Source of the DNA: Fretibacterium sp.
GTDB lineage: Bacteria; Synergistota; Synergistia; Synergistales; Aminobacteriaceae
Direction: 5' to 3'
NCBI GenBank assembly: GCA_024695065.1
Contig: JAILIX010000025.1
Span: 1 to 53,419 of the forward strand
Length of the DNA: 53,419 nt
This document shows, piece by piece, positions 33,397 through 39,037 of the stretch. The notes under the pieces are model-generated. The model was given only the letters and a program-made list of their open reading frames with translations, did not search any database and was not told the DNA's origin. Position numbers and translations under genes: made by a program. Every line of letters starts with the position of its first letter. Positions within the stretch are counted from its first letter, which is position 1.

Positions 33397-33440
33397 ATTA
33401 AGGGGCATCAGGTTTTACTTTGGAAGGAAGGTTTTTGGCA

Positions 33441-35129
33441 GTGAACGGTTTAACGATTATTGTTCTCACCATTGTTGTCCTGCTCATCGCCTACGTCTTT
33501 TACGGCCGCTGGCTTGTGAAGACGTGGGGCATTGATGAGAACGCGCGGACCCCGGCCTGGCGGTTTGAGGACGGCCAGGACTTCGCTCCCGCGTCGCGCT
33601 TCACGGTCTTTGCGCATCAGTTCTCCTCCATCACGGGGGCGGGCCCTGTGACGGGTCCCATTATTGCTGCTATGTTCGGCTGGGTCCCGGCGTTCCTGTG
33701 GCTCCTGATCGGCGGCGTGTTTTTTGGTGCTGTGCAGGACTTCACGGCGCTGTATGCCTCCGTCAAGAACGACGGCAAGTCGATGGGCCTGCTTATTGAG
33801 CGCTACGTCGGCCGGACGGGCCGCCGGCTGTTCCTGCTGTTCTGCTGGCTCTTTACGCTGCTGGTCATTGCGGCATTCTCGGACATCCTCACCGGTACCT
33901 TCAACGGCTTCACAGCGGACGGCGGTCAGAACGTGCCAGGCGCTGCTGCAGGCTCCATTTCCATGCTCTACATCTTTGTGGCGGTGGCCTTTGGTTTCTT
34001 CATCCGCTGGGTCAAGCCGGGCGAGGGGCTTAAGCTGCTGGTGGGCGTTGCCCTGATTGTTGGGATGCTTGCGCTGGGCATTATGAACCCGCTGTATCTT
34101 GATGTTCCCAAGTGGCGTTATGTGGTGTTCGCCTACTGCTTCATCGCGTCGGTGCTGCCGATGTGGATGCTGATGCAGCCCAGGGACTATCTCAGTTCCT
34201 TCCTGCTGCTGGGCATGATTGCCGGCGGCGTTATCGGTGTTCTGGCGACGAACCCCTCCATTGACGGGATGCCGGCCTTTGTGAGCTTCACCGTGAAGAA
34301 TCAGCCGCTGTTCCCCATTCTGTTTATCACTATTGCATGCGGCGCTGTCTCCGGGTTCCACAGTCTGGTGTCCTCCGGCACCTCCTCCAAGTCCATCTCC
34401 ACTGAGCGTGACATGCTCTCCGTGGGCTATGGCTCCATGCTGGTGGAGACGCTGCTGGGTGTCGTGTCCCTTGTGATTGCCTGCTCCGTGGCCCAGGGCG
34501 GCGCGCTGCCCGCGGGAAAAACTCCCTTCCAGATTTTTGCGGGGGCTGTGGGCGGTTTCTTCACGATGTTCGGCCTGCCTCAGAGTGTCTCCGTCGCCAT
34601 CATGACAATGTGCGTGTCGGCCCTGGCCATGACCACCATCGACTCCGTGGCGCGCATCGGAAGAATGTCGCTTCAGGAGCTGCTTGTCCCTTCCGAGGGA
34701 CGTGAGATGGGCGCGCTGGCGAAGTTCATTGCCAATAACTACGTCGCGACGGCTCTGACCCTCGCCCTGAGCTACGCGCTCTGCCAGGCAGGCTACATGA
34801 GCATCTGGCCGCTGTTCGGTGCGGCGAATCAGCTTCTCTCCGCGCTGGTGCTGGTGTCTCTGGCGGTGTTCCTGCGGGTGACCGGGCGCAAAGGATGGAT
34901 GCTCTACGTGCCGATGACTTTCATGTTCGTGGTGACCATGACGGCCCTGGCCATGAGCGTCTACGGGATCTTCAGCAAGCTGTCCGGCGGGACCTTTGTG
35001 TTCATGGTGGATGGGCTTCAGCTTATCCTCGCGCTGGCGCTGATGACCCTGGCGGTGCTGGTGGTTTCGCACTGCGGCCGCGAGCTCGTGACCGGCAAGC
35101 TGGAGGAAAACACGGCCGCCGCAGACTAG
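33441..35129 (+). CDS. cstA: CstA-family peptide/pyruvate-type transporter
   Basis: CstA (carbon starvation protein A) family members are multi-pass inner-membrane transporters, reported to import peptides or pyruvate. I start at GTG with GGAAGGAAGG upstream. The 562-residue product has about 15 hydrophobic helices. Near its start it carries conserved blocks: YGRWLVKTWGID near residue 24, the SSITGAGPVTGPIIA block near 64 and GVFFGAVQDFTALYASVKNDGKSMG near 92. GAVSGFHSLVSSGTSSKSI lies near 307. It is flanked by a promoter-proximal hairpin and a strong terminator, so it is transcribed alone. Confidence 0.94.
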   Translation: MNGLTIIVLTIVVLLIAYVFYGRWLVKTWGIDENARTPAWRFEDGQDFAPASRFTVFAHQFSSITGAGPVTGPIIAAMFGWVPAFLWLLIGGVFFGAVQDFTALYASVKNDGKSMGLLIERYVGRTGRRLFLLFCWLFTLLVIAAFSDILTGTFNGFTADGGQNVPGAAAGSISMLYIFVAVAFGFFIRWVKPGEGLKLLVGVALIVGMLALGIMNPLYLDVPKWRYVVFAYCFIASVLPMWMLMQPRDYLSSFLLLGMIAGGVIGVLATNPSIDGMPAFVSFTVKNQPLFPILFITIACGAVSGFHSLVSSGTSSKSISTERDMLSVGYGSMLVETLLGVVSLVIACSVAQGGALPAGKTPFQIFAGAVGGFFTMFGLPQSVSVAIMTMCVSALAMTTIDSVARIGRMSLQELLVPSEGREMGALAKFIANNYVATALTLALSYALCQAGYMSIWPLFGAANQLLSALVLVSLAVFLRVTGRKGWMLYVPMTFMFVVTMTALAMSVYGIFSKLSGGTFVFMVDGLQLILALALMTLAVLVVSHCGRELVTGKLEENTAAAD

Positions 35130-35151: not shown

Positions 35152-35178
35152 AAGTCCCCCCATCCCGGGGGGACTTTT
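35152..35178 (+). terminator. Intrinsic terminator after cstA
   Basis: A 10-bp perfect AAGTCCCCCC/GGGGGGACTT stem with a 5-nt loop runs into TTTTAATT about 25 nt after the cstA stop. Confidence 0.9.
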
Positions 35179-35335: not shown

Positions 35336-35418
35336 CACGATATTATTAGAAGGCGCGTGGAATCAGAATTTTTGCGCACTTTCGGACAATAATAAACATG
35401 ATTGAGGAGGATTTGATG

Positions 35419-36243
35419 ATGAAGTGCAACAAGGGTTTTCGGGTGCTGTGTCTGGTGCTGGCAGCCTTTATTTCCATGGCGGTGTGTGCTTCTGCGGGTG
35501 AGAAACTGAGGGGATTGGAGCAGCTCAAAACGTCGTATCTGGCGGTTCAGCGCGGCACGGTGGGGCAGTTTATCGCTGAGGATCTGCTGGGCGACAAAAA
35601 GGGTGAATTGCTGACGACCTATGAGAAGTATGTGGATGCCATCGCCTCGCTCCGGCTGGGCAAGGTCCGTGCCGTGGTGATGGACGAGCTGCCTGCCAGA
35701 CGTTTCCTGAATGAGGTGAAAGGGCTGGCAATCATGAGTGAAGCCCTGTCGGAGGAGAGCTACGCCATTGGCTTCAGGAAGGGCAACGCGGAGCTTCTCG
35801 GCCAGGTGAACAAGATTCTCGCTGAGCTCAAGGCAGACGGAACTCTGGAAGCTATCTTTGAAAAATATCTCACCGGGAACCTCCTGGAAATCAAACCGGA
35901 GAGCATCGACATGAACAAAGGAGCCGCAAAGGGGCGCCTTGTTGTGGGAACAGAGGCCGGTTTTGCGCCCTATGAGCTGAAGGTGGGCAGCGGCTACATT
36001 GGCATCGATATTGAGATGTGCGCGGCCATCGCCAAAAAGCTGGACCGGGAGCTGGTTATCGAGAACATGAACTTTGATGCGCTGCCCATGGCCGTGTCCA
36101 CGGGCAAGGTGGACATGATCTGCGCCGGAATCACTGTCACGGAGGACCGCAAAGAAAATATGGATTTTTCCGACGAATACGTAGAGGGCGCGCGGCAGGT
36201 TGCAGTTGTGCGTGCGGACGACTACGAGGCCCCGGGGAAGTAG
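35419..36243 (+). CDS. Amino-acid ABC transporter substrate-binding protein with permuted lobes
   Basis: The 274-residue product has a signal peptide (cleavage near ASA, residue 26) and belongs to the SBP_bac_3 family, but its lobes are in reversed order. Residues 33-151 match the family's second lobe: VQRGTVGQFIAEDLLGD, then GKVRAVVMDELPA, YAIGFRKGN and LAELKADGTLEAIFEKYL. Residues 172-265 match the first lobe: GRLVVGTEAGFAPYEL, then IGIDIEMCAAIAKKL, FDALPMAVSTGKVDM, ITVTEDRKENMDFSDEY and QVAVVRAD. The ligand Arg of TEDR and Asp of VMDE are both kept. GGAGG lies 8 nt upstream of the ATG used; another ATG is one codon earlier. The permease follows directly. Confidence 0.92.
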   Translation: MKCNKGFRVLCLVLAAFISMAVCASAGEKLRGLEQLKTSYLAVQRGTVGQFIAEDLLGDKKGELLTTYEKYVDAIASLRLGKVRAVVMDELPARRFLNEVKGLAIMSEALSEESYAIGFRKGNAELLGQVNKILAELKADGTLEAIFEKYLTGNLLEIKPESIDMNKGAAKGRLVVGTEAGFAPYELKVGSGYIGIDIEMCAAIAKKLDRELVIENMNFDALPMAVSTGKVDMICAGITVTEDRKENMDFSDEYVEGARQVAVVRADDYEAPGK

Positions 36244-36244
36244 G

Positions 36245-37057
36245 ATGAGTGCAAACGTAAATTCCAGACGTGGTGCAGGCCGCGGGGACGCTGTCCTCGC
36301 GGTCTGTGCTGCTGTTCTGCTTTTCCTGCTGTTCCGGTCCGGCTTCTTTACGGCGGAGGCCTGGGACGACTTTGGCCGCCGGTTTTACCAGAACTTTGTC
36401 AAGGATAATCGCTATATGATGCTGGTGGACGGCCTGAAGGCAACGATTTTCATGACGGGTTTTGCAACCCTGATAGGGCTGGCCGTCGGCCTCATCCTGA
36501 GCGTCATCCGGGTGGCCTATAAGGGGGGCGTTCCCATCCGGTTCCTCAACGCCTTCGCGGAGTGCTACATCACCGTTCTGCGGGGAACTCCGGCGATGGT
36601 GCAGCTTCTGATCTGGAACTTCACCATCTTCGCCTCGGCCAGGGACCTCAACACGCAGTATATTGCCATTCTGGCCTTTGGACTCAACTCCGGGGCCTAC
36701 GTGGCAGAGATTTTCCGCGGGGGCATTGAGTCCATTGACTCCGGTCAGATGGAGGCAGGGCGCTCTCTGGGGCTGTCCTATGGCACGTCCATGCGCTTCA
36801 TTGTTCTGCCTCAGGCCCTGCGGAACGTTGTCCCCATGCTGTTCAATGAGTTTATCGCCCTGCTGAAGGAGACTTCCGTGGCCGGTTACATCGGCATCGA
36901 TGACCTGACCCGGGCCGGACAGAACATCCAGGCTCTGACTCTGGAGCACTCCCAGCCCCTGGTGATGGTGGCCATTATCTATCTGGTGATCGTGATGTTC
37001 CTGACGGGCTGCGTGCGCCGCCTGGAGCAGTGGCTGGGCCGCAGCAGAAGGGGGTAG
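36245..37057 (+). CDS. Amino-acid ABC transporter permease (HisM/GlnP family)
   Basis: The 270-residue product is the membrane subunit of a polar-amino-acid importer. It has an extra N-terminal helix (about residues 16-35), then the family core starting at [21 protein letters not shown] near 57. The [22 protein letters not shown] segment near 160 is the EAA-type loop that docks on the ATPase, and [17 protein letters not shown] near 208 is also conserved. The ATG begins one base after the binding-protein stop, so translation is coupled. Confidence 0.95.
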
Positions 37058-37062
37058 GGACA

Positions 37063-37812
37063 ATGGACAACGCAGGCGTCCCGATGATAGAAGTGAGGGA
37101 CCTTCGCAAGGTCTTTGGAAATCTGACTGTTCTGAATGGCATCAACACGGGTATCCGAAAGGGTGAGAAGGTGGCGGTCATTGGCCCGTCCGGCTCCGGC
37201 AAGAGCACGTTTCTGCGATGCCTGAACCGCATGGAAGAGCCCACCTCCGGCGTCATTCGCTTCAAGGGAGAGGACATTACGGCTCCCGGATGTAACATCG
37301 ACAAGGTCCGCCGCCATGTGGGGATGGTGTTCCAGCATTTCAACCTCTTCCCGCATCTCACGGTTCGCCACAACATCACTCTGGCCCCAACGCAGCTTAA
37401 AATGATGAACCAGACGAAGGCGGACAAACGCGCCGAGGAGCTGCTGGCCCGGGTGGGGCTGGCGGACAAGGTGGACGAGTGGCCGGAGCGTCTTTCCGGC
37501 GGGCAGAAACAGCGCGTCGCCATTGCCCGCGCCATGGCGATGGACCCGGATGTCCTGCTCTTCGACGAGCCCACCAGCGCGCTGGATCCGGAGATGATCG
37601 GCGAAGTGCTGGAGGTCATGAAGGAACTGGCCGACGACGGCATGACGATGTACCTTGTCACGCACGAGATGGGGTTCGCCCGGGAAGTGGCCGACCGCGT
37701 GCTTTTCATGGACGGAGGGCGCATCACCGAAGAGGGCTCGCCGGAGGACGTCTTTGATCATCCGAAGGAGTCCCGCACGGTGGAGTTCCTCTCCAAGGTG
37801 CTGAGACGGTAA
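37063..37812 (+). CDS. Amino-acid ABC transporter ATP-binding protein (GlnQ/HisP family)
   Basis: This 249-residue ATPase energises the importer. Walker A is GPSGSGKST near residue 42, the Q-loop is [14 protein letters not shown] near 90, the ABC signature is [15 protein letters not shown] near 143 and Walker B is [12 protein letters not shown] near 167. The switch His lies in [11 protein letters not shown] near 200. It starts 5 nt after the permease stop, and an M20 hydrolase follows 13 nt after its own stop, in one operon. Confidence 0.97.
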
Positions 37813-37825
37813 AGGGGAGGGCGTC

Positions 37826-39037
37826 ATGGGAGATTTCAAGGGACTGACCCCGTCTGCGGCGGGGCGCTACGTCGATAAAGTGGTGGCATGGCGGCGTGAG
37901 ATTCACCGCCGCCCTGAGCTGAGCCAGCATGAGGAGCGCACGGCAGCCCTCGTTGCGGAGGTGCTGTCCGGGCTGGGCCTGGAGGTGCGGCGCGGCGTGG
38001 GAGGCCATGGTGTGGTCGGTCTGCTGCGGGGGAAAACCGGCGGCAGGACTGTGGCGCTCCGGGCGGATATGGATGCCCTGCCCCTGAAGGAGGAGACGGG
38101 GCTGCCCTATGCCTCGGAAGTGGAGGGCGTCATGCACGCCTGCGGTCACGATACCCACACGGCCATGCTGCTGGGGGTGGCCTGTGCTCTGGCGGACAGC
38201 CGCGAGGCGCTGAACGGGAATGTGAAGTTTCTCTTCCAGCCTGCCGAGGAGCTGAACCCCACTGGCGGCGCGCCTGGCATGATTGCGGAGGGGGCGCTGG
38301 AGGATCCCCATGTGGACGCGCTCTTTGCACTGCACGTCTGGCCCCGGTATGAGACGGGGACGGTGGCCCTGAAGCCGGGGCCCCAGATGGGGGCGTCGGA
38401 CCGGCTTTTCCTGACAGTTCACGGCAGATCCGCTCACGGCTCCGCGCCGGACCAGGGGGTGGACGCCATTATGATCGCTTCCCAGGTGGTCTGCGGTCTC
38501 CAGAGCATTGTGAGCCGCAGCATCTCACCGCTGGACTCCGCGGTAGTCACCGTCGGCACCATCAGGGGCGGCTGGCGCTATAACGTTATTCCTGACTGCG
38601 TGGAGATGGAGGGGACGGTCCGCACTCTCCGGGAAGAGACCCAGGCACTCATGCCGGAGCTCATCACCCGCACGGCCTCGGGCATCGCGGCATCGCTGGG
38701 CGGAAGCTGCGACGTAAAGTACGTCAAGGGGTATCCTCCCATGGTGAATGACCCCGCTATGTTTGAGCTGGCGTCGGAGGCTGTCCGCGGGGCGATGGGG
38801 CCTGAATCTCTGGTTGTGGTGGAGCAGCCGGAACTGGGGGCGGAGGATTTTGCTTTCTTTGCACGGGAGAGGCCTGCGGTGATGGGCTGGCTGGGCTGCC
38901 GTCCCAAAGGGGCGCGCCCGGAGGACACCGCTGTTCTGCACAACACGCGCTTCTGCCCGGATGAGGGCTGTTTCCCCTTTGGAGTAAGCTTCCTTGCTTC
39001 CTGCGCGCTGGGTTTCCTGAACAGGGCTGAACTTTAA
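37826..39037 (+). CDS. M20-family amidohydrolase (N-acyl-amino-acid hydrolase type)
   Basis: The 403-residue product is a zinc-dependent amidohydrolase of the M20D/hippurate-hydrolase group. It has RREIHRRPELSQHE near residue 28, ALRADMDALPL near 76, HACGHDTHTAMLLG near 102 (metal ligands), FQPAEELNPTGGAPGMI near 136 and the dimerisation domain in the middle. A C-terminal GAEDFAFFARERPAVMGWLG carries the last part of the site. Placed at the end of an amino-acid ABC operon, it probably frees amino acids from acylated forms brought in by that system (inference). Substrate is not determined. Confidence 0.92.
   Translation: MGDFKGLTPSAAGRYVDKVVAWRREIHRRPELSQHEERTAALVAEVLSGLGLEVRRGVGGHGVVGLLRGKTGGRTVALRADMDALPLKEETGLPYASEVEGVMHACGHDTHTAMLLGVACALADSREALNGNVKFLFQPAEELNPTGGAPGMIAEGALEDPHVDALFALHVWPRYETGTVALKPGPQMGASDRLFLTVHGRSAHGSAPDQGVDAIMIASQVVCGLQSIVSRSISPLDSAVVTVGTIRGGWRYNVIPDCVEMEGTVRTLREETQALMPELITRTASGIAASLGGSCDVKYVKGYPPMVNDPAMFELASEAVRGAMGPESLVVVEQPELGAEDFAFFARERPAVMGWLGCRPKGARPEDTAVLHNTRFCPDEGCFPFGVSFLASCALGFLNRAEL

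Follow-up and report, generated by a model that had tools for sequence, protein, structure and literature searches.

The gene at positions 35419-36243 (+) of the window, the whole stretch of 53,419 nucleotides of Fretibacterium sp. DNA that we analyzed, encodes a substrate-binding protein (SBP) of the SBP_bac_3 family whose two lobes stand in reversed order. We are highly confident in the explanation as a whole, namely that this is the SBP of a polar amino-acid ABC importer, permuted at hinge 1, with ligand binding and a duplication route being inferred and recurrence of the event being supported. The window gene is fixed in the permuted order across its orthologous set, where the SBP-permease-ATPase operon is kept. 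Beyond the single circular permutation that an earlier note on this DNA had read from the letters, our results support that the event is recurrent and show that a second cut site exists.

The reading frame begins at an ATG at 35419, with a second in-frame ATG at 35416, and ends with a TAG at 36241-36243, giving a protein of 274 residues. A ribosome binding site, gaggagg, was read from the sequence at 35404-35410 (+), and a signal peptide (35419-35496, +) was assigned by eye, with cleavage inferred after ASA. The frame, the start and the stop are as in the earlier note, which had described a frame bracketed by a clean ribosome binding site, the signal peptide and the stop codon. One base separates the stop codon from the ATG of a permease gene (36245-37057, +; BPD_transp_1), which is followed by genes for an ABC ATPase of the polar amino acid type (37063-37812, +) and an M20 amidohydrolase (37826-39037, +). 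The permease and ATPase qualify as a PAAT-type importer, with matches to the HEQRo-type permease model TIGR01726 at 57.3 bits (cut-off 42.2) and to ABC_tran at 138.9 bits. The best NCBIfam models for the ATPase were EhuA, GlnQ and TcyN, all below their cut-offs. A copy of the downstream M20 amidohydrolase is also present in the two closest relatives (L001 and L002). Directly upstream of the operon lies a gene for a CstA-type carbon starvation transporter (33420-35129), and a terminator-like hairpin (35155-35172, +) stands between it and the SBP gene. No consensus sigma-70 promoter was found at the locus, nor was a riboswitch or other Rfam element that might name the ligand.

After the signal peptide, the protein runs through lobe 2 and the C-terminal helices (residues 30-151; 35506-35871, +), which form the second part in the canonical order, through a 22-residue linker from the old C-terminus to the old N-terminus (35872-35937, +) and then through lobe 1 (residues 174-263; 35938-36207, +), the first part in the canonical order. 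In alignments with SBP_bac_3 members, this reversed order was returned by Pfam, phmmer and lobe-specific HMMs alike. Pfam PF00497 (SBP_bac_3) matched in two stretches at 111.8 bits (cut-off 26.4), residues 174-268 corresponding to profile positions 1-94. By phmmer, residues 24-151 aligned with positions 103-231 of the AncQR chain (4zv1) and residues 171-268 with positions 9-107. HMMs built separately for the two lobes from PDB sequences placed lobe 2 at 30-151 (71 bits), followed by lobe 1 at 174-263 (78 bits). These matches bear out the second-lobe blocks that the earlier note had seen in residues 33-151 and the first-lobe blocks that it had seen in residues 172-265. PF00497 was the only family that Pfam found in the protein, with no match to the OpuAC family or to the type I sugar-binding family.

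The family course of lobe 1, lobe 2 and a return to lobe 1 is not followed by the window protein. Since its order is lobe 2, lobe 1, we class it as a circularly permuted variant and not as an ordinary SBP_bac_3 member. Among the PDB matches listed, the sole end-to-end match was 6h30, a tandem of two canonical domains, and it runs from lobe 2 of the first domain into lobe 1 of the second. No single-domain structure with the permuted order end to end was found among these matches. A chance origin of the reversed order is excluded because of the scores and the identical order in all full-length orthologues. Nor was an extra lobe detected in the flanks, in agreement with the earlier note: the approximately 290 nt back to the stop of cstA hold no such frame, and on the other side the permease follows immediately.

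Both ligand residues that the earlier note had pointed out are present, as Arg244 of a TEDR motif (36148-36150, +) and Asp89 of a VMDE motif (35683-35685, +) align with R75 and D157 of E. coli GlnH. In GlnH, R75 holds the ligand carboxylate and D157 the ligand amino group. The window protein further has F, F, G and T at the positions of F13, F50, G68 and T70, with substitutions of E for D10 and Q for K115. The R75 and D157 equivalents were found in all representatives of the lobe-2-first proteins (CP1; 17/17) and of a second type of permutation described below (CP2; 6/6). The retention of GlnH ligand positions supports binding of a free amino acid by the window protein; there are no binding or transport data, and the exact ligand is not named. 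By analogy, the ligand would be held through its carboxylate by Arg244 in lobe 1 and through its amino group by Asp89 in lobe 2. The two lobes would close around an amino acid, and the closed complex would dock on the permease dimer.

A scan of GTDB genomes returned 29 relatives of the window protein. These included 23 Synergistota orthologues and one protein from a MAG labelled Clostridiaceae (L024), all with 58-85% identity to the window protein. The rest were a lobe-2-first protein of the isolate Ructibacterium gallinarum with 39% identity to that of the window, three proteins in canonical order (L027-L029) and a fragment of 93 residues that lies at the end of a contig (L025). Apart from L023, whose frame is broken in lobe 1, the orthologues all show lobe 2 in full ahead of a full lobe 1, which makes more than 20 orthologues with this order. 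Within the Synergistota, 50 of the 188 genomes, from 5 of the 63 genera, carry one to five copies, nearly all of which match the whole profile, and one copy lies on the single 2.73 Mb contig of a single-contig genome (G039). In the Clostridia, the class of R. gallinarum, lobe-2-first proteins were matched over their whole length in 22 of 391 genomes, three of them as fused L2-L1-permease proteins, and a search with the Pfam model alone yielded permuted genes in 9 of 60 genomes. The survey was limited to the phyla of the window and of R. gallinarum, and most source genomes are MAGs. A tblastn search of plasmids with the R. gallinarum protein matched 894 records, only one of which spanned 80% or more of the query. 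That match appears to be an SBP-permease fusion in Enterococcus faecalis.

The genome that contains the window encodes ordinary canonical SBP_bac_3 proteins as well as a close paralogue of the window gene (contig 112) and two divergent paralogues (contigs 69 and 52). In the divergent lobe-2-first paralogues, L152:3052-3981 (+) and L153:3786-4757 (-), the TEDR-type Arg and the lobe-2 Asp could not be recognized by eye, so these proteins may have a different ligand or serve an accessory role. Genes like them lie just upstream of the main gene in three relatives (L004, L007 and L011). A separate lobe-2-first protein, L182:1019-1870 (-), is related to the GlnP SBDs and ends just after lobe 1; it is either a further independent case or the remnant of a tandem fusion.

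The CP2 proteins are cut inside lobe 2: they start with its second half, continue with lobe 1 and end with the first half of lobe 2. A further 34 genomes of the R. gallinarum class gave matches confined to lobe 1 and the second half of lobe 2, and those examined were CP2. The CP2 loci are L108-L115, L154, L159-L180, L184 and L200, nearly all with a lipobox-like N-terminus, and three CP2 genes are located on contigs of 3.0, 4.9 and 3.8 Mb (genomes G383, G412 and G538). Three other candidates with Pfam matches to lobe 1 only (L155, L156 and L183) proved canonical, with the order L1-L2a and a weak end. Nearly all CP1 and CP2 loci of the main set with enough flanking sequence show the SBP-permease-ATPase order, as genes or fragments, on one strand; the exception is L150, which has no permease or ATPase neighbor.

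Permuted units also occur in arrays. Two ORFs of the window's own genome (G000), of 764 and 916 residues on contigs C32 (L033:541-2832) and C11 (L032:703-3450), read L2-L1-L2-L1 followed by a permease domain and then by an ATPase gene, and are tandem SBP-permease fusions in a permuted register. The R. gallinarum class likewise contains (L2-L1)2-permease and (L2-L1)3-permease arrays, such as a 1000-residue ORF with three L2-L1 units and a permease domain (L147:3206-6205, -). That many sources are MAGs and that tandem SBPs exist (L202, 6h30) could suggest an assembly artefact or the decaying remnant of a tandem SBP gene, but we give this almost no credence. The order is repeated at 58-85% identity in independent assemblies, in the single-contig genome G039, on the multi-megabase contigs with CP2 genes and in an isolate, while frames are intact and ligand residues and operons are conserved. 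The independent genomes, the intact frames and the lack of leftover lobes thus rule out an assembly artefact, a frameshifted tandem pair and a pseudogene.

AlphaFold (25 sequences) modeled the window protein as one confident globule (best of five models: pLDDT 92.7, pTM 0.87; mean pLDDT across the five: 77 to 93) and gave a pLDDT of 89.7 and a pTM of 0.82 for the R. gallinarum lobe-2-first protein. The old C-terminal helices are followed by a linker, 19-30 residues long in lobe-2-first proteins, that leads to the old N-terminal strand, and lobe 1 comes last in the window protein, ending at the former hinge strand. The earlier note had claimed that the circular permutation is natural and places the new termini at a hinge; profile alignments, orthologues and the structure model agree with it. 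Full-length Foldseek TM-scores to known SBPs were only ~0.3-0.5, and among the long matches were 6h30 and glycine-betaine proteins, OpuAC for example. Because Foldseek aligns in sequence order, the scores are low and a superposition remains unconfirmed; the usual SBP fold is inferred from sequence homology and model confidence, without a permutation-aware superposition. On its own, a single chain would be expected to adopt the usual Venus-flytrap fold, in which only one hinge strand would still be covalently continuous and each lobe would carry one of the chain ends.

Alternatively, the lobes might pair between chains, lobe 2 of one with lobe 1 of another, in a domain-swapped dimer; the protein would then be a half-register part of an oligomer and not a monomeric permutant. 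A linker of 19-30 residues would permit pairing within or between chains, the pairing of lobes is ambiguous inside the L2-L1-L2-L1 arrays, and domain-swapped dimers are reported for the family member TmArgBP (PMC4022495). However, the AlphaFold models are confident (pTM 0.82-0.87), albeit as monomers only, and the two termini that the linker connects belong to lobe 1 in canonical family members (PMC5087393). We consider the swapped dimer unlikely and favor the monomeric permutant.

A phylogenetic tree of 69 sequences reordered to lobe 1 + lobe 2 (LG+C20+F+G4, 211 columns) revealed that canonical and permuted proteins interleave. Sequences that were too divergent or broken were excluded: L083, the divergent paralogues and the arrays from the main tree as a whole, and L181 and L195 from its final version. 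Parsimony requires ten changes, at least seven of which are forced by well supported branches, and none of the bootstrap trees had one origin of the permuted proteins. The window protein falls in a supported lobe-2-first clade whose members come from Synergistota and from some R. gallinarum-class genomes. The AU test rejected a single clade for all permuted proteins (2e-28), for CP2 (8e-5) and for CP1 without the GlnP-like L182 (6e-4). These p-values are indicative only because the tested groups were named after the first tree was seen, and the backbone of the tree is weak in the key clade. Close pairs lead to the same conclusion independently of any tree: the CP2 protein L108 and the canonical protein L143 are 78.6% identical across lobe 1 together with the first half of lobe 2, and 73.5% identical in the remainder, and their operons have identical order, with permeases 76% and ATPases 72% identical. 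Further canonical/permuted pairs are L093/L194 and L184/L132. The tree and the tests thus support repeated origins of such permutations within SBP_bac_3, and two or more cut sites were used.

Change counts cannot separate gain from loss, which leaves room for one old permutation followed by several reversions to the canonical order. We find such a history very improbable, as a reversion would itself require a permutation, the cut sites differ between CP1 and CP2, and CP2, which is placed next to canonical sisters, alone requires five changes in the tree. In addition, no single-domain PDB relative among the matches listed covers the permuted profile end to end. Considering that outside relatives are canonical, the canonical order is the likely start from which repeated permutations departed.

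The earlier note had proposed tandem duplication followed by loss of the outer halves, and we likewise infer that a canonical gene was duplicated in frame and then lost its outer halves. The point at which the tandem gene was trimmed would decide between CP1 and CP2, and L2-L1-L2-L1 arrays are the product expected from shifting a GlnP-like tandem by half a unit. Permutation by duplication predicts fused tandem genes, and L202:1591-3174 (-) is one. This 528-residue ORF, likely a recent intragenic duplication, contains two complete canonical domains that are 79% identical, is followed by separate permease and ATPase genes, and belongs to a broad subfamily that also includes the CP2 protein L184. 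The affinities of lobe 1 and of lobe 2 of the permuted proteins to canonical proteins are also correlated, with rank correlations of 0.47-0.79, all positive. L202, the (L2-L1)n-permease arrays and these correlated halves support the route, which is still an inference; a duplication intermediate in the window's own lineage was not found. An origin as a chimera, with the two lobes drawn from different SBP genes, is suggested by the window protein, where the best canonical relatives of the two lobes differ and the rank correlation is moderate (0.58). Yet the correlations are positive throughout, and both parts share one best canonical relative in the recent cases L108, L184, L182 and L200. A chimeric origin seems quite unlikely to us, and permutation through duplication remains our preferred explanation.

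To our knowledge, natural circular permutations are mostly old and observed once per family. Here, one widespread family offers several permutations, two cut sites, a tandem-duplication intermediate and a 73-79% identical canonical/permuted pair in matching operons, so that how permutation comes about, and what it costs in hinge motion, binding and transport, can be tested directly. Permuted SBPs are missed by annotation that is blind to domain order. A natural permutation in SBP_bac_3 was not found in the open full-text literature, most subscription papers being outside its scope. The earlier note knew of no described example in the family, and this holds for the open literature, although other SBP families do have published examples of comparable permutations.

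The window protein shares its Pfam family, its lobes, its ligand residues and its operon with a PAAT permease and ATPase with canonical SBP_bac_3 or cluster F proteins (GlnH, ArgBP, LAO), whereas its lobe order is reversed, its old termini are joined by a linker and its new ends lie at hinge 1. TpMglB-2 (Tp0684) is likewise a naturally permuted ABC-importer binding protein, named Type Ic or Cluster Bc, but it belongs to a different family with a type I sugar-binding fold, and only part of its N lobe is at the C-terminus, which leads to a fourth crossover (PMC4990184). Natural permutation relationships among binding proteins were also reported for the glycine-betaine binding proteins OpuAC and ProX by structure comparison with CPSARST; these are again of a different family, and the compared proteins have <24% identity to each other (PMC2395249). 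In the tandem SBDs of GlnP (6h30), the stretch from lobe 2 of SBD1 to lobe 1 of SBD2 aligns end to end with the window protein, but there are two domains and the register is canonical. Essentially the same design as in the window protein was engineered in the cpLAO-BP sensor, a LAO-binding protein that was cut at one hinge, with (GGS)4 bridging the old termini and the ends on different lobes, and that still binds lysine (PMC5087393). The sensor paper cites Okada 2009 (PMC5087393). Unlike the window protein, this permutant is man-made and of reduced affinity, with a Kd for lysine of 107 uM versus 3 uM reported for the native protein, a 36-fold decrease (PMC5087393). Where the hand-made hinge-cut permutant lost affinity, the permuted SBPs described here provide natural templates for biosensors.
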